Assembly (NCBI RefSeq): GCF_003932785.1
Contig: NZ_RQYT01000031.1
Location: 1-36,174 of the forward strand
Direction of reading: 5' to 3'
Length of the DNA stretch: 36,174 nucleotides
Source of the DNA: Arachnia propionica
GTDB taxonomy: Bacteria > Actinomycetota > Actinomycetes > Propionibacteriales > Propionibacteriaceae
Within the stretch, counting starts at the first letter, position 1, and each line of letters opens with the position of its first letter. Positions 2,803-12,546 of the stretch are shown here, one piece after another. A program made the translations under genes and the position numbers. Below the pieces are notes generated by a model. It saw nothing but the letters and a program-made list of their open reading frames with translations, did not search any database and was not told the DNA's origin.

Positions 2803-4377
2803 TCACAGATGCGTGATGATGCCGTAGCAGATCGCGTCGAAGAGGGCCTCCCACGACGCCTCGATCACATTGGTGCCGACCCCGACCGTCGTCCAGGTCA
2901 GGCCACCCCAGGACGTGTCGATGAGGGTGCGGACGATCGCATCGGTGCCGTGGCCCTCGTCGAGGATGCGCACCCGGTAGTCGGTCAGCTCGAACTCCGC
3001 GACCTCCGGGTAGGCCGGGGCGACGGCCTGCCGCAGCGCCTGGTCCATCGCGTTGACGGGGCCGTTGCCCTCGCCCACGACCATGTGTCGCTCGCCCTTC
3101 GCGGTGAGCTTCACCGTCGCCTCCGTGATGGAGACCCCGTCCCGCTCCTCCGTGAACACCCGCCACGAGTGCACCTCAACGGGAGCCATCGGCAGCCCCA
3201 GCTCGTCACGCAGCAGCAACTCGAAACTCGCGTCGGAGGCCTCGTAGGAGTACCCCTCGGCCTCCTTCGCCTTCACGAGATCCGTGATCCTGGCCGCGAC
3301 GTCCCTGTCGGCGAGGTCGAATCCCAGCTGCTGCCCCTTGATCTGGATGTTGGCCCGTCCGGCCATGTCGGAGATGAGCATCCGCATGTCGTTGCCGACC
3401 CGCGCCGGGTCGATGTGCTGGTACAGGTTGGCGTCGACCTTCACGGCGGAGGCGTGGAGGCCCCCCTTGTGGGCGAAGGCCGAGTGCCCCACGTAGGGCA
3501 TCCTGCCGAGGAGGGGCTGGTGGGCGACCAGGGCGATGGCATGGGCGACGCGGGTCAGCTCGGACAGCCTCCCCTCCGGCAGGACCCGCCAGTCGTACTT
3601 GAGTTCCAGGTTCGGGATGATGGTGGCGAGATCGGCGTTGCCGGTGCGTTCCCCGTACCCGTTGAACGTCCCCTGGACGTGCATGACACCGGCCTCGACT
3701 GCGGCGAGGGTGTTCGCGACGGCACAGCCCGAGTCGTTGTGGCAGTGGATCCCCAGCCGGGCCCCCGTGCCCGCGGCCGCCCTGACGACCTCCCCCATCC
3801 AACTGGGGAGCATGCCGCCGTTGGTGTCGCAGAGCACCACCACCTCGGCCCCCGCCTCGGCGGCGGCGGACACCACCGCCAGGGCATGGTCGGGGTTCGC
3901 GCGGTAGCCGTCGAAGAAGTGCTCGCAGTCGACGAAGACCCGCCGTCCCTGACCGACGAGGTACTCCACCGTGTCCGTGACCATCGCCAGATTCTCCACC
4001 AAGGAGGTCCTGAGTGCCCGAGTGACGTGTTCGTCGTGACTCTTCGCGACGACGCACACGTACTCGGTGCCAGCCTCCAGCAGCGCGGCCAGGAGCGGAT
4101 CCGTCGCGGCCGTGCCCCCGGGACGCCGGGTGGCGCCGAAGGCCACGAGCCGGGACGTCGTGAGTTCGAGCTCGCGCGCCCTGGCGAAGAACTCGGTGTC
4201 CGCGGGGTTGGCCCCCGGCCACCCGCCCTCGATGAAGGTGACCCCCAACTCGTCGAGATACCGGGCGATCCTCAGCTTGTCCTTCACGCTGAGATTGATC
4301 CCCTCCTGTTGACCACCGTCACGCAGGCTCGTGTCGAACAGGTGGAACTCCGCAGGGCGCTGTGGAACTCGGGACAT
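2803..4377 (-). CDS. cimA: (R)-citramalate synthase
   Basis: A 524-residue enzyme condensing pyruvate and acetyl-CoA to citramalate, the entry to threonine-independent isoleucine synthesis. The HMGL-like TIM barrel carries [13 protein letters not shown] at residues 14-26 (R19, D20), D184 in CDTNGG, and the metal-binding HCHND at 211-215. A C-terminal LeuA-type allosteric domain covers roughly 400-524, where isoleucine feedback would be expected. [15 protein letters not shown] is typical of CimA rather than 2-isopropylmalate synthase. The frame stays open far upstream, but ATG at 4377 has GAAGGAGAG a few bases before it and gives the family N-terminus. The gene is divergent from leuB, 96 bp away, and heads the minus-strand run. 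A weak -10-like TACCGT lies in the intergenic gap. Confidence 0.93.
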
Positions 4378-4460
4378 GATGCTCTCCTTCACCGTTCCGG
4401 CAACGGTAGGGCAATGTCTCGCGAGCTGGGAATCCGCTCCCCACGATCTGAGACACCCTC

Positions 4461-4466
4461 TAGTGT
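4461..4466 (+). promoter_or_regulatory. -10 element for a probably leaderless leuB mRNA
   Basis: TAGTGT (TANNNT) ends 7 nt before the leuB ATG at 4474. No Shine-Dalgarno sequence precedes the ATG, so transcription probably starts at or next to the start codon. No convincing -35 was seen. Confidence 0.55.
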
Positions 4467-4473
4467 TCACACC

Positions 4474-5526
4474 ATGACGAAACAGCGGTTGGCGATCATC
4501 GGCGGCGACGGGATCGGGCCGGAGGTGACCGCCGAGGCGTTGAAGGTGCTCCGCGCCGTCGCCGGACCGGATGCGTTCGAGGAGGTCCACTACGACCTGG
4601 GCGCCGAACGCTGGCAGCGCACCGGGGAGGTCCTGCCGGATTCGGTCCTGACGGAACTCGCCACCGTCGACGCCATCATGCTGGGAGCGGTCGGCGCCGC
4701 ACCGGGCTCGAAGGCCGTGCCCTCCGGGCTCCTGGAACGGGGCCTGCTGCTGAAACTTCGGTTCGCCTTCGACCACGGGGTGAACCTGCGACCGTCCCGT
4801 CTCCACCCGGGCGTCGACACCCCTCTGGCTCCCGAGGTCGTGGCGAAGGGGGACATCGACTTCGTCGTGGTGCGTGAGGGCACCGAGGGGCTCTACTGCG
4901 GCAACGGTGGCGCGGTGCGTTCCGGCACCGCCCAGGAGATCGCCACCGAGGTCTCCGTGAACACCGCCTTCGGCGTGGAACGGGTGATCCGTGACGCCTA
5001 CGAGCGTGCCCGTTCCCGTCGTGGCCGACTCACGCTGCTGCACAAGCACAACGTGCTGGTCCACGCCGGCGGCCTGTGGCAGCGGCTGTTCACCCAGGTC
5101 GGCGAGGAGTTCCCCGACGTGGAACGCAGCTACCTCCACATCGATGCGGCCATGATCGCGATGGTCGTCAACCCCGCCCAGTTCGACGTCATCGTGACCG
5201 ACAACCTGTTCGGCGACATCATCACCGATCTGGCGGCCGCCGTGACGGGCGGGATCGGACTGGCGGCATCGGCCAACATCAACACCTCGGGCGAGTTCCC
5301 CTCGATGTTCGAGCCCGTCCACGGCTCCGCCCCGGACATCGCAGGCAAGGGCGTGGCTGATCCCGTCGCTGCGATCAGCTCGGCCGCGCTGCTGTTGGCC
5401 CACCTCGGCCGGCCCGATCTGGCGGCCAGGATCGACGACGCCGTCGCGCACGAGATCTCCGCCCGCTCCGCCGGGCCCGTGTCGACCTCAAAGGTCGGCG
5501 ACCGGATCGCCGCTGCGGTCTCCTGA
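4474..5526 (+). CDS. leuB: 3-isopropylmalate dehydrogenase
   Basis: A 350-residue NAD-dependent dehydrogenase converting 3-isopropylmalate to 2-oxoisocaproate in leucine synthesis; in the citramalate route it also converts 3-methylmalate to 2-oxobutyrate. Features seen include the N-terminal GGDGIGPEV, the arginine-rich substrate loop ([17 protein letters not shown]), [15 protein letters not shown] in the actinobacterial LeuB form, the metal-binding [10 protein letters not shown], and [15 protein letters not shown] in the coenzyme site. Length is normal. The frame is open far upstream (antisense to cimA), but ATG at 4474 fits the family N-terminus and follows a -10 element by 7 nt. It is monocistronic, divergent from cimA, and ends at a strong bidirectional hairpin. 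Confidence 0.95.
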
Positions 5527-5601: not shown

Positions 5602-7113
5602 TCAGGCCTCGGTCGCCTCGCCCTTGACCACACCCTGGGCACCACCGGTGCGGGACTTCAGCATGTCCAGCACATCGATGCCCGTGGTGTTCTTGATCAT
5701 CTCCACCGTCTGCAGGACGTTGTCGTTGATCTGGCGCGGCAGCGCGGCCGCCCCGTCCGTCGAGACGACGGTGAGCTTGTCGATCGCGCCCATCGGGGCC
5801 GCGACCTTCTCCGCCACCTGCGGCAGCACCTCAACCAACATCTGGAGGACGGCGGCCTCGTTGTAGTTGGCGAAGGCCGCGGCCCGCTTGTCCATGGCCT
5901 CGGCCTCGGCGGCACCGATCGCGAGCACCGCGGCAGCCTTCGCCTCACCCTCGGCGCGGGTGGCCTCGGCCTCGGCGATACGACGGGCCTTCTCGGCCTC
6001 ACCGCGACGGGCACCCTCGATGGCCTCGGCCTCCGCCAGTGCGGCACGGCGCTGCTTCTCACCCTCACCGGTGAGCCGTGCCGTCTCGGCGGCGGCCTCG
6101 GCGTCGGCGATCGCAGCGGCCTTGCGGGCCTCGGCCTCGAAGATCTCCGAGTTCCGACGCGCCTGGGCCTGGGTCTCCGTCTCGTACCGCTTCGCATCCG
6201 CGGGCTTGCGGACCTCGGTGTCGAGCTGACGGTCCTTCAGTGCCGCCTGACGCACGGCCACCTTCTCCTGCTCGGCGAGGATCGCCTGGTCACGATCCGC
6301 CTGGGCCAGCGGGCCGGAGGCCGCGGCCTGGGCGCGAGCCGCGTCGGTCTCGGCCTTGATCTCGGCCTCCTTGAGCACCAGGGCCCGCTCCGAGATGGCG
6401 ATCTCCTGCTCCGCGGCGATACGGGCCTGCTCCGCCTCCCGGCGGGCGTTCGCCTCCGCGATGGCGGCGATCTGCCCGACCTTGGCCGATTCGGGACGCC
6501 CCAGGTCGGAGAGGTAGGTGCCGTCGTCGGTGATGTCCTGGATCTGGAAGGTGTCGAGCACGAGTCCCTGACCGGTCAGGGACGCCTCCGACTCGTCGGC
6601 CACCCGCTGGGCGAAGGCGGCACGGTCGCGAATGATCTGCTCGACGGAGAGACCACCGACGATCGACCGCAGGGCACCCGCGAGGGTCTCCTGGGTGAAG
6701 GTCTCGATCTCCTCCTGCTGCATGAGGAACCGCTGCGCGGCAGCGCGGATGGAGTCCTCGTTGCCACCGACCTTGACGATGGCAACACCGTCGAGGTTGA
6801 GCTTGATGCCCTGCCCGGACACGGCGTTGCGGATCTGGACCATGATGCGACGGCTCGACAGGTCGAGCACGTGGAGACGCTGGATGAGGGGGATGACGAA
6901 GACGCCGCCACCCATGATGACCTTCTGGCCGGACAGGTCCGTGGAGACAACACCGGTCTCGGGATTGGTGACCGCCCTCCCCTTCTGGCCCGTGATGATG
7001 TACGCCTCGTTGGGCCGCGCCACCCGGTACCGGCTGGCGATCAGCCAGATCACCAGGATGGCGAGGAGGATGACACCCCCGATACCCGTGAGGAGGGAGG
7101 AGAGTTCTGGCAT
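5602..7113 (-). CDS. flotillin-like SPFH-domain membrane scaffold protein
   Basis: A 503-residue flotillin family protein (FloA/YuaG type), a scaffold of membrane microdomains affecting fluidity and protease or secretion complexes. One N-terminal membrane segment spans about residues 7-27. The SPFH/PHB domain covers about 31-200, and a long Ala/Glu-rich coiled coil runs from about 215 to 420, with repeats such as AEAEA and EGEAKAAA. The C-terminus is short and conserved-looking. ATG at 7113 is preceded by GAAAGGA. The gene lies 12 bp downstream of an NfeD-like gene, the classical pairing in which NfeD partners a stomatin or flotillin. Transcription from the pair ends at the hairpin at 5547-5574. 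Confidence 0.9.
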   Translation of the reverse strand: MPELSSLLTGIGGVILLAILVIWLIASRYRVARPNEAYIITGQKGRAVTNPETGVVSTDLSGQKVIMGGGVFVIPLIQRLHVLDLSSRRIMVQIRNAVSGQGIKLNLDGVAIVKVGGNEDSIRAAAQRFLMQQEEIETFTQETLAGALRSIVGGLSVEQIIRDRAAFAQRVADESEASLTGQGLVLDTFQIQDITDDGTYLSDLGRPESAKVGQIAAIAEANARREAEQARIAAEQEIAISERALVLKEAEIKAETDAARAQAAASGPLAQADRDQAILAEQEKVAVRQAALKDRQLDTEVRKPADAKRYETETQAQARRNSEIFEAEARKAAAIADAEAAAETARLTGEGEKQRRAALAEAEAIEGARRGEAEKARRIAEAEATRAEGEAKAAAVLAIGAAEAEAMDKRAAAFANYNEAAVLQMLVEVLPQVAEKVAAPMGAIDKLTVVSTDGAAALPRQINDNVLQTVEMIKNTTGIDVLDMLKSRTGGAQGVVKGEATEA

Positions 7114-7125
7114 TGATGGTCCTTT

Positions 7126-7635
7126 CTACTGGGGTGGGAGTTCAGGAACGACGGGTCGGACCTCGACCGCCGTCGGGGAGATGATCGCGGAGACCCACAC
7201 CTGGGTTCCTGCGGGAATCGGGACGGGGGAGATGGCCGCCCGTTTGTCGTGGCTGCCGTGGATGCGGACCTCGCCGAATCCGGACGACGGGATGTCGGTG
7301 ACCACGCGGGCCTCGGAACCCACGAGTGCCTCGTTCTTCACGATCGCCCCGGATTCCCCCCGTTTGAGCCAGCGGGTGAGCCCCACGGCACCCCACGCCG
7401 CGAGGAAGCCGCTCACGAGACCCACGGGTACCGTCACCCAGAAGGTGTCGAGGAAGGCCGACGCCGCCAACCCTCCGAAGCCGAAGGCCCCCACGAAGGC
7501 GGCGATGGCGGAGACGGAGAAGATCTCCGAGTCGAACCCGTCGAAGTGGAAGGCCGCGTCGAAGAAGTCCCCCAGGATGATGAACACCGCGAGGGCCAGG
7601 GAACCAAGGATTCCGAGGATGAGAAAGATGCTCAT
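7126..7635 (-). CDS. NfeD-like membrane protein, flotillin partner
   Basis: A 169-residue protein with hydrophobic segments at about 3-22, 38-62 and 67-88 and a C-terminal OB-fold-like beta domain at about 104-163. This is the layout of short NfeD proteins that lack the ClpP-like protease domain. NfeD proteins are encoded next to flotillin or stomatin genes and are thought to bind them through the OB domain. ATG at 7635 has a good Shine-Dalgarno, GGGAGGAAA, about 10 nt upstream. It is first in a two-gene operon with the flotillin gene. Identification rests on topology and context more than on sharp motifs. Confidence 0.75.
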   Translation of the reverse strand: MSIFLILGILGSLALAVFIILGDFFDAAFHFDGFDSEIFSVSAIAAFVGAFGFGGLAASAFLDTFWVTVPVGLVSGFLAAWGAVGLTRWLKRGESGAIVKNEALVGSEARVVTDIPSSGFGEVRIHGSHDKRAAISPVPIPAGTQVWVSAIISPTAVEVRPVVPELPPQ

Positions 7636-7780: not shown

Positions 7781-11075
<3,295 letters not shown>

Positions 11076-11117
11076 GTCTCTCCCTTCGGTCTCGGCCTGC
11101 ACCGTTGCTTCCCCAAC

Positions 11118-11149
11118 AAAAAACCCTCGGCGCCTTGGGCGCGCGAGGG
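11118..11149 (-). terminator. attenuator terminator of the ilvBNC leader
   Basis: On the minus strand CCCTCG, a GCGCC/GGCGC inner stem with a CAA loop and one bulge, and CGAGGG form a stable hairpin (11149-11124). It is followed at once by six T (11123-11118). The ilvB start is 42 bp further on, so this is an intrinsic terminator inside the leader, not at an operon end. With the leader peptide upstream it matches classical transcription attenuation. Confidence 0.88.
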
Positions 11150-11177
11150 AGCGTCTCGACTGGTGGATCGAAACGCT
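11150..11177 (-). promoter_or_regulatory. leader hairpin between the leader-peptide stop and the attenuator
   Basis: AGCGTTTCGA at 11177-11168 pairs with TCGAGACGCT at 11159-11150 (nine Watson-Crick pairs and one U-G) around an 8-nt loop. It directly abuts the terminator stem. Its position suits a pause or alternative structure that changes with ribosome position on the leader peptide. The exact competing pairings would need folding calculations. Confidence 0.6.
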
Positions 11178-11178
11178 G

Positions 11179-11208
11179 TCAGACGATTACGAGCTGGCCG
11201 CTGGTCAT
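11179..11208 (-). CDS. ilvBNC leader peptide (branched-chain amino acid sensor)
   Basis: ATG ACC AGC GGC CAG CTC GTA ATC GTC TGA encodes MTSGQLVIV. The last four sense codons are Leu-Val-Ile-Val, so all three end products of the pathway are read just before the stop. The stop codon overlaps the bases leading into the leader hairpin, and the attenuator follows. Ribosome stalling when charged Leu, Val or Ile tRNA is scarce should favour readthrough into ilvB. No Shine-Dalgarno is present. The -10 element ends 6 nt before the ATG, so the mRNA is probably leaderless. Short actinobacterial ilvB leaders of this kind are known. Confidence 0.88.
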
Positions 11209-11214
11209 GGGCCA

Positions 11215-11243
11215 ACAATTGCGCCCCGGACGGTGCATGTCAA
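11215..11243 (-). promoter_or_regulatory. ilvBNC promoter
   Basis: A perfect -35 TTGACA (11243-11238) and a weak -10 AATTGT (11220-11215) are separated by 17 nt. The predicted start falls near 11208, the A of the leader-peptide ATG. The perfect -35 with a poor -10 is notable. 11244-11475 otherwise holds no recognisable gene. Confidence 0.75.
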
Positions 11244-11439
11244 GCACTTCTCCCCCACTGTCCTGCATCGTGAGACGGTTTCGCGGGCGAGCGGACAGGC
11301 ACATCCACTGCGGTCGTCACGATCCCCTCCTCCGGGCACCCTCGTGAAGGCCCGGGCCCAGCTCACCCCTGAACCTCGACATCGGGTCGAGGGTTGGGGA
11401 CCCCGGGACTTGGGCCAACGGAACCAAGATGCTTAACGT

Positions 11440-11452
11440 GACGTCGAACGTC
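11440..11452. promoter_or_regulatory. small palindrome upstream of the SH3/RlpA gene
   Basis: GACGT-CGA-ACGTC is a perfect 5-bp inverted repeat with a 3-nt spacer, 23 bp before the chosen start at 11476. It could be an operator, or chance in GC-rich DNA. Confidence 0.3.
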
Positions 11453-11475
11453 ATCGAATGATTCAGGAGTACCTC

Positions 11476-12546
11476 ATGAGCATGATCGATCACGTACGTC
11501 GTTTCTGCGTCGTCGCAGGGCTCACCGCTGTGCTCAGTGTCCCAGCGCCCGCGGTGTTCCCCACCACGACGGCCGTCGCGGCAGCCGGGGACACCGTGAC
11601 CGCTCGGGTGAACGTCAACATCAGGAGTGGCCCGGGCACCTCCCACCCGAGGCTCGGGCTGCTCCGGGCCGGACAGACCCTCCAGGCCCGGGGCTCCGCC
11701 GTCAACGGGTGGGTGCCGGTCTCCCACCGAGGTCGGGACGCCTGGGTCTCGGCGCCCCACGTCCGCACCAGCCCCGCCACCGCGCCCGTTCCCGCGGATG
11801 CGACCGCCATCGGGCAGGCGAGGACGACGACACGCCTCAACGTGCGGCCGCAGCCCAGCACCTCCAACCGCCCCCTGACGGTCCTCGCCAAGGGCGCCAC
11901 CGTCGGGACCACCGGGGTGGTGTCCGGGACGTGGACCCAGATCGTGTGGCGCAGCGGCACCGCCTGGGTGGCCTCCCGCTACCTGGCCAGTGGTGGTTCC
12001 GCCCCTGTCCCGGCCCCGGACCCCGTCGTCTCCCCGACCCCGACACCCGCGCCCGCCACCACCGGGTCCCGTTGGGCCACCACTGAACTGAACCTCTGGG
12101 TCTCCGCCACCGGCAGCCGATACCGCGGCACCGTCCCGAAGGGCACCGAACTCAGGATCACCGGTACCGTCAGTCGCGGCCGCGCCCAGGTGGTGTGGCG
12201 GGGAACCACGCGCTGGGTCACTGCCCGGTACCTCTCGGAGACCGCCCCGGGAACCGTCCCCACCGGCACCCAGTCCTGCCTCGCGTCGTTCTACGGCGAC
12301 GACACCGCCACGGCATCCGGGGAACCCTTCGACCGGTGGGCGATGAAAACCGCTCACCGGAGCCTGCCCTTCGGCACCCGTCTCAGGGTGACGAACCCGA
12401 GCAACGGCAAGTCCGTCGTCGTCACGGTCAACGATCGCGGCCCCTACGTCGCCGGACGCTGCCTCGACCTCACCACCGGCGCCTTCCGGGAGATCGCGGA
12501 CCTGGAGCAGGGGGTCATCAAGGTGAACTTCGAGATCGTGCGATGA
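11476..12546 (+). CDS. secreted protein with three SH3 domains and an RlpA-like double-psi beta-barrel
   Basis: A 356-residue exported protein likely to act on or bind peptidoglycan. A Sec signal peptide covers about residues 1-37, with probable cleavage near AVAAA. Three bacterial SH3-type modules follow (about 39-95, 113-171 and 199-254). A Pro-rich linker separates the second and third. The RlpA-type barrel spans 268-355, with ASFYG, TAHRSLPFGTRLRVTN, VNDRGPYV and GRCLDL. H294 and D320 match the pair implicated in RlpA lytic transglycosylase activity. I chose ATG at 11476 because AGGAG precedes it by 6 nt; ATG at 11458 adds six residues but has no such site. No lipobox is visible. Whether it cleaves glycan or only binds is open. 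Confidence 0.85.
   Translation: MSMIDHVRRFCVVAGLTAVLSVPAPAVFPTTTAVAAAGDTVTARVNVNIRSGPGTSHPRLGLLRAGQTLQARGSAVNGWVPVSHRGRDAWVSAPHVRTSPATAPVPADATAIGQARTTTRLNVRPQPSTSNRPLTVLAKGATVGTTGVVSGTWTQIVWRSGTAWVASRYLASGGSAPVPAPDPVVSPTPTPAPATTGSRWATTELNLWVSATGSRYRGTVPKGTELRITGTVSRGRAQVVWRGTTRWVTARYLSETAPGTVPTGTQSCLASFYGDDTATASGEPFDRWAMKTAHRSLPFGTRLRVTNPSNGKSVVVTVNDRGPYVAGRCLDLTTGAFREIADLEQGVIKVNFEIVR

Follow-up and report, generated by a model that had tools for sequence, protein, structure and literature searches.

The closest described systems are the ilvB leaders of Corynebacterium glutamicum, Mycobacterium tuberculosis and Streptomyces, whose features are given here as they stand in the available portions of the cited reports. 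The ilvBNC leader peptide of C. glutamicum lacks a ribosome-binding site (Morbach et al. 2000). Its RNA starts one nucleotide from the start codon, replacement of the valine codons by alanine codons abolishes the valine response, and mutation of the start codon lowers expression by 80% (PMC11857589). The peptide has 15 aa, there is a three-base overlap between the antiterminator and the base of the terminator, and a third hairpin, an anti-antiterminator, has been proposed. The ilvB1 leader of M. tuberculosis has 166 nt and LVVI control codons. Replacement of these codons gives low, unresponsive expression; pathway inhibition gives readthrough, which is lost with Ala codons; the antiterminator is masked by a ribosome at the stop codon, and terminator and antiterminator are called mutually exclusive (PMC13236596). 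Starvation leads to readthrough in both organisms, and GUA is a marked control codon in both leaders (PMC11857589, PMC13236596). The ilvL leader of Streptomyces lividans is described as "transcribed leaderless" (PMC8079986). Seliverstov et al. (2005) predicted ilvB leaders in Corynebacterium, Mycobacterium and Streptomyces; the available text of that paper leaves the mechanism open and does not name Propionibacteriaceae for ilvB (PMC1262725). A search of the open-access literature for ilvB with Propionibacterium, Cutibacterium or Propionibacter found no paper on a Propionibacteriaceae ilvB leader.

In the present work, an element upstream of ilvBNC was analyzed in a 36,174-nt stretch of Arachnia propionica DNA (the window). 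The element fits the actinobacterial ilvB leader-peptide attenuators: it lies 5' of ilvBNC and has a Leu/Val/Ile ORF and a U-tract terminator, as do the candidates of Seliverstov et al. (PMC1262725). With C. glutamicum and the ilvB-II motif it shares a Leu/Val/Ile peptide without a ribosome-binding site, a GUA codon and a hairpin directly before the terminator, according to the accessible parts of the reports (PMC11857589, PMC10272879). The window peptide differs from that of C. glutamicum in having 9 aa and a stop codon before the hairpin, with no overlap and no third hairpin kept in predicted folds. The element order is that of the Streptomyces ilvL MRTRILVLGKRVG, which is called leaderless (PMC8079986), and the control codons, including GUA, and the predicted masking by a ribosome at the stop codon resemble those of M. 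tuberculosis ilvB1. Thus, the leaderless ilvB attenuator type is already known, and the present element is a further member of it with a short tail-less peptide and a non-overlapping junction. The results carry the ilvB attenuators known from experiments over to Propionibacteriaceae and indicate which codons are able to act.

Locus, promoter and predicted start of the leader RNA

The host draft genome has 3.49 Mb in 181 contigs. All genes and leader features given here lie on the minus strand. The gene for the large subunit of acetolactate synthase, ilvB (9339–11075), was identified by Pfam TPP enzyme domains, TIGR00118 and NCBIfam NF005860 (1013.5 bits, cut-off 881). The small-subunit gene ilvN (8836–9360) matched NCBIfam NF008864 and TIGR00119 over cut-off. 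The ketol-acid reductoisomerase gene ilvC (7781–8812) was assigned by a family match, and its start was set provisionally at the first M within the match. Directly downstream of ilvC is a Flotillin/Band 7 gene (5605–7113, Pfam), adjoined by an NfeD-like gene (7126–7635) below the Pfam cut-off. About 5 kb downstream of the ilvC region lies a LeuA-like branched-chain ORF (2806–5451), whose residues 369–874 match HMGL-like, HCS_D2 and LeuA_dimer. It is a second LeuA-like gene, besides one at G000:C127, and probably codes for citramalate synthase. A narrow scripted search (TTGAC plus a short ORF) found no leader at leuA or at the cimA-like gene of the same genome.

The IlvB protein was at most 92% identical to those of same-genus genomes; the nearest named loci were an unclassified Propionibacteriaceae MAG (86%), an uncultured Arachnia (83%) and Tessaracoccus massiliensis (82%). 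The genus group (the Tessaracoccus/Arachnia group of Propionibacteriaceae) was sampled as 34 loci, from 30 of 36 same-genus genomes searched and 4 named loci. The named loci L031 and L033 duplicated the upstream regions of L008 and L029, and L019 had the same leader as L018, which left 31 distinct leaders. With 76 other loci, the total was 110. Outside the genus group, the ORF script gave no candidate in 13/76 loci and an evidently wrong ORF at a few others (L036, L043, L102), and the leader was visible by eye in L035 and others without a scripted candidate. The terminator script gave none in 11/76 of these loci and a wrong stem by eye in several (L039, L089, L096, L098, L109, L110). A U-tract terminator between the ORF and ilvB was present in 34/34 genus-group loci and, by script with a few wrong picks, in 99/110 loci overall. 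Gap and footprint counts cover 88 loci (84 distinct) with an ORF, a terminator and a distance of 40–140 nt from ORF start to terminator; L039 and L096 fell outside this range and were left out.

The −35 element TTGACA (11243–11238) was followed after 17 nt by a weak −10 element AATTGT (11220–11215), and 6 nt later by the ATG at 11208. The terminator T run ended 42 nt before the ilvB ATG at 11075, and AAGGGAGAG was a Shine-Dalgarno-like match ahead of ilvB. Base-by-base re-reading confirmed the coordinates and spacings of the initial annotation, including its 42-bp distance to ilvB.

Within a search window of 32–40 nt, the first T of TTGACA preceded the start codon by 35 nt in 25 and by 36 nt in 9 of the 34 genus-group loci; the start codon was ATG in 26 and GTG in 8. 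The same search gave 35–37 nt in 61 of the 63 other loci having a candidate. The chance of this arrangement was estimated with a pattern of TTGAC, a start codon 35–37 nt on, and an ORF of 6–20 codons with at least three Leu/Ile/Val. The pattern fitted 32/32 distinct genus-group upstream regions and 6/3200 dinucleotide shuffles; outside the genus group it fitted 49/76 regions and 6/7600 shuffles. Since the genus-group relatives are not independent, the count of 32/32 shows constraint, not 32 separate origins.

In the −10 element, the A at position 2 and the T at position 6 were, by eye, the only bases that recurred in relatives. A generic consensus scanner reported neither a promoter-like nor a terminator-like site between 10900 and 11500, so the −10 element would rank as weak in E. 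coli, and the terminator stem, with one bulge, misses the scanner pattern. The spacing of 35–36 nt and a −10 element just before the start codon suggest that RNA starts at the start codon. The leader RNA is thus likely to be leaderless, with a predicted start at ATG 11208 or about a nucleotide off, and the fixed spacing in 34/34 genus-group loci supports the leaderless start proposed earlier.

The claimed lack of a Shine-Dalgarno sequence held in the window, where no match was found 5' of the small ORF. The genus group was mixed: 22/31 leaders had a match of 3–5 nt, of chance size, which would fall in or near the −10 element. Loading without a Shine-Dalgarno sequence had been put forward as a variation on the enteric scheme; it is not new, since such ilvB leaders have been reported for C. 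glutamicum and S. lividans in the portions of the literature available.

Leader peptide, control codons and modeled ribosome position

The leader ORF (11208–11179, TGA 11181–11179) codes for the 9-aa peptide MTSGQLVIV, and its start is the predicted RNA 5' end. A Leu/Val/Ile-bearing ORF of 9–11 codons, with a T6 terminator, was found in 34/34 genus-group loci, so the peptide is conserved among the ilvB leaders of relatives.

Codon usage in the leaders was compared with that of the ilvB genes only. Exactly one in-frame GTA was present in each of the 31 distinct genus-group leaders, and in the corresponding ilvB genes GTA made up 2.0% of 1534 Val codons. In the genus group, CTC accounted for 33/39 leader Leu codons against 40% in ilvB, and ATT for 11/44 leader Ile codons against 6.5%. 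Beyond the genus group, 54/137 leader Val codons were GTA, in a tally that holds a few mispicked ORFs.

In the ribosome model, the front edge was placed 12 nt 3' of the first base in the A-site codon. In the window, the H1 hairpin (11177–11150) kept −15.2 kcal/mol when CTC occupied the A site; the values for GTA, ATC and the final GTC were −14.9, −9.2 and −3.7, and the value for the stop codon was 0. In the 31 genus leaders, ribosomes at the first, second and last branched-chain codons and at the stop left on average −15.5, −14.7, −4.5 and −0.9 kcal/mol of structure before the terminator, respectively; the same means for 53 other leaders were −22.3, −21.5, −10.0 and −2.9 kcal/mol. The contrast between first codon and stop persisted with the ribosome front at 9–16 nt (−15.5 to −13.0 vs. 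−2.5 to −0.7 kcal/mol). The GTA value depended on the edge, with −15.5 kcal/mol at 9 nt and only −5.5 kcal/mol at 16 nt. The distance from control codon to H1 was 13–17 nt in the 34 genus-group loci and 12–15 nt in the 37 other loci with a match to the codon pattern.

The initial annotation had proposed that the peptide senses all three end products. This holds in part: the codons are unequal, with Leu CTC and Val GTA leaving H1 intact or nearly so and Ile ATC leaving it partly. On the footprint model, sensing would be narrowed to Leu CTC and Val GTA (11193–11188), with Ile in part; the invariant single GTA and its rarity in ilvB also support these control codons.

With a ribosome at the stop codon, 14–23 nt (median 19) of RNA remained free before the terminator, which leaves the terminator free. 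The stop codon was 1–5 nt ahead of H1 in the genus group, where loops were short. In most of the sampled Streptomyces, unlike here, it was 11 nt inside H1, with loops of 28–50 nt. In the model, both stop positions put the terminating ribosome over the H1 5' arm.

The junction between H1 and the terminator

H1 consists of 11 pairs, two of them G-U, with a loop of 6, and the intrinsic terminator follows with 0 nt between them (stem 11149–11124, T6 11123–11118). The fold of 11214–11076 had z = −2.56. A stem abutting the terminator was present in 31/31 distinct genus leaders. In the alignment of these leaders, 94.8% of H1 and terminator cells were standard pairs, compared with 37.5–46.6% when partners were slid by 1–3 columns, and the covariation score and the number of two-sided cells were above 500/500 shuffles. 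Two H1 pairs changed on both sides, a number reached by 205/500 shuffles, so genus covariation is thin, and further pair types were fewer than in shuffles. In a phylum-wide sample, the own H1 5' arm paired better than the mean foreign arm for 43 of 45 distinct 3' arms; over all 68, the own arm was matched by 14% of the foreign ones. The combined evidence of alignment pairing, covariation and arm swaps indicates that H1 is real.

The gap between H1 and terminator was searched from a 4-base overlap to a 20-base gap. It was 0 nt in 24 and 1 nt in 7 of the 31 genus leaders, the window having 0 nt, so the three-base overlap of the Corynebacterium ilvB-II motif was absent from all of them. Over the 84 distinct leaders, the gap was 0–2 nt in 72, an overlap of 1–4 bases in 10, and 8 or 17 nt in 2; shuffled leaders had a gap of 0–2 nt in 16%. 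It was also 0 nt in the Streptomyces loci examined here. The H1 loop ranged from 3 to 50 nt across the sampled leaders. The conserved feature is therefore the H1-terminator junction rather than the size of H1.

In the enteric model, the antiterminator takes bases from the terminator. Here, H1 and terminator share zero bases. Minimum-free-energy folds held both hairpins together in 31/31 genus leaders, whether untranslated or freed from the H1 start, and outside the genus in 40/52 untranslated and 49/52 freed leaders. No antiterminator exclusive with the terminator by pairing, as in the enteric trp/ilv type, was visible in any of the 31 genus folds of this kind, and pairing does not explain an antiterminator role of H1. 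Folding for competing structures thus gave coexisting hairpins in every predicted genus fold. The earlier description of a complete attenuator was too strong in its first word, because a competing antiterminator of the enteric type was not found; the attenuator itself is supported.

Two candidate alternative structures were rejected. A conserved 2:3 antiterminator was absent from the genus consensus structure and from the minimum-free-energy folds, which are no proof of absence. By eye, the Leu-Val codons CUCGU also looked able to pair with the terminator 3' arm, but a halted ribosome would cover these bases, and the match varies.

Proposed mechanism and alternatives

The element is most likely an attenuator of ilvBNC transcription that depends on ribosomes and has a leaderless leader peptide. 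This agrees in part with the reading first proposed, and the conserved layout, the Leu/Val/Ile peptide, and the hairpin with its terminator support it. The RNA would begin at or near ATG 11208, and the ribosome would load straight on the 5' end, as the spacing and the published relatives suggest. When charged Leu- and Val-tRNA are present, the computed geometry predicts that the ribosome reaches TGA 11181, its front covers the H1 5' arm and no H1 forms. With about 19 nt of free RNA before it, the terminator would fold and transcription would end. Under Leu or Val shortage, the ribosome is predicted to stall at an A-site CTC or GTA, where its front stops just short of H1, and H1 would form. By analogy with C. 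glutamicum and M. tuberculosis, formed H1 would lead to readthrough into ilvB. The direction, with H1 forming on starvation and favoring readthrough, follows from the geometry and the published physiology.

Since H1 and terminator share no bases, steric hindrance is the likeliest route by which H1 could act. A rigid stem joined to the terminator base might impede closure of the final terminator pairs within the RNA exit channel, and the terminator 5' strand may be kept from being drawn into this channel. Antitermination by abutment, in which a linkerless ribosome-controlled hairpin blocks termination sterically and not by base competition, is put forward only tentatively and is rather doubtful. 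As part of this reading, and equally tentatively, the three-base overlap of C. glutamicum could be one end of an Actinomycetota range of −4 to +2 nt, which covered 82/84 leaders. A limited literature search on upstream hairpins, the exit channel and antitermination found no paper testing this mechanism. If abutment alone antiterminates, predictors of terminators and attenuators that demand shared bases miss a class of switch. The spacing of H1 and terminator, in bases, is a single variable that could bear both on how the antiterminator works and on why the codon mutants of Streptomyces coelicolor kept regulation.

Several observations stand against the proposed attenuator. Mutations of the ilvB codons in S. 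coelicolor were reported, in the available part of that paper, to have no effect on regulation (PMC1262725), and clustered hairpins have been argued to favor termination (PMC8355165, available text). In addition, H1 was kept in the predicted folds of 31/31 untranslated genus leaders. The attenuator model therefore predicts readthrough without translation, counter to the C. glutamicum start-codon mutant, whose leader has an extra hairpin.

That mutant would be explained by a classical trp-like attenuator, where H1 is only a 1:2 pause or protector hairpin, an unrecognised antiterminator (weak, transient or tertiary) forms on stalling, and no translation means full termination. The three-hairpin model with its three-base overlap (PMC11857589) points the same way, and H1 of the window was predicted to extend slightly into the terminator 5' arm while the 3' arm was unmade. 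However, this extension uses bases covered by a ribosome at GTA and is absent from the genus consensus structure, and the coexistence of H1 and terminator in all predicted folds of the 31 genus leaders also argues against this explanation, which is considered unlikely. Attenuation could also operate as usual on a small ORF translated from a longer RNA started upstream. The weak −10 element, the scanner result and the short purine matches before the ORF in some relatives (22/31) are consistent with such an RNA, but the fixed spacing within and outside the genus group and the published leaderless starts of C. glutamicum and S. lividans ilvB make it quite improbable.

Control could lie mainly with a DNA-binding regulator of the IclR type, NdgR-like, at an operator-like site 5' of the −35 element, the leader being a constant terminator. 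A GTCTCA..AT..AGGAC site was found 33 nt ahead of TTGACA, a simple pattern of it matched 15/31 genus leaders, and NdgR binds upstream of S. coelicolor ilvB according to the portion of the literature available; the ineffective codon mutations (PMC1262725) would also fit. Such control leaves the conserved leader ORF, the rare GTA and the codon-to-hairpin spacing unexplained, and 16/31 leaders lack the pattern, although many have a related GTCTTACAT site by eye. It is judged very unlikely. A leader that binds a metabolite or tRNA (ppGpp riboswitch, T-box) in place of a peptide sensor would resemble the elements controlling ilv genes in Firmicutes (PMC10272879, available text). The element is short, though, and its reading frame is the most strongly conserved part. 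No Rfam family reached the gathering score in the window, and a relaxed Rfam scan of 11000–11480 gave low scores only, mostly for eukaryotic families and snoRNAs. The probability of this explanation is minimal.

A putative operator, GTCTCACGATGCAGGAC, was located at 11276–11260 on the minus strand. It is an imperfect inverted repeat that starts 33 nt upstream of TTGACA, and the simple pattern placed it at 31–33 nt in 15/31 genus leaders. It resembles the 15-bp motif GTCCAC...GGAC of NdgR (IclR family), given in the accessible literature as lying upstream of S. coelicolor ilvB.

Leaders varied widely outside the genus group (L036–L110, for example L047, L059 and L084). Freshwater actinobacterial MAGs had long Ser/Val-rich leader peptides (for example MQEKLALISSSSVIVVVIR) and a GC-poor terminator, with the same H1-terminator junction. 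Two loci, L059 and L098, both titled Bifidobacterium breve MAG, had ilvB leaders dissimilar to each other. The L059 leader is of the freshwater actinobacterial type, which suggests that record titles may be mislabelled.
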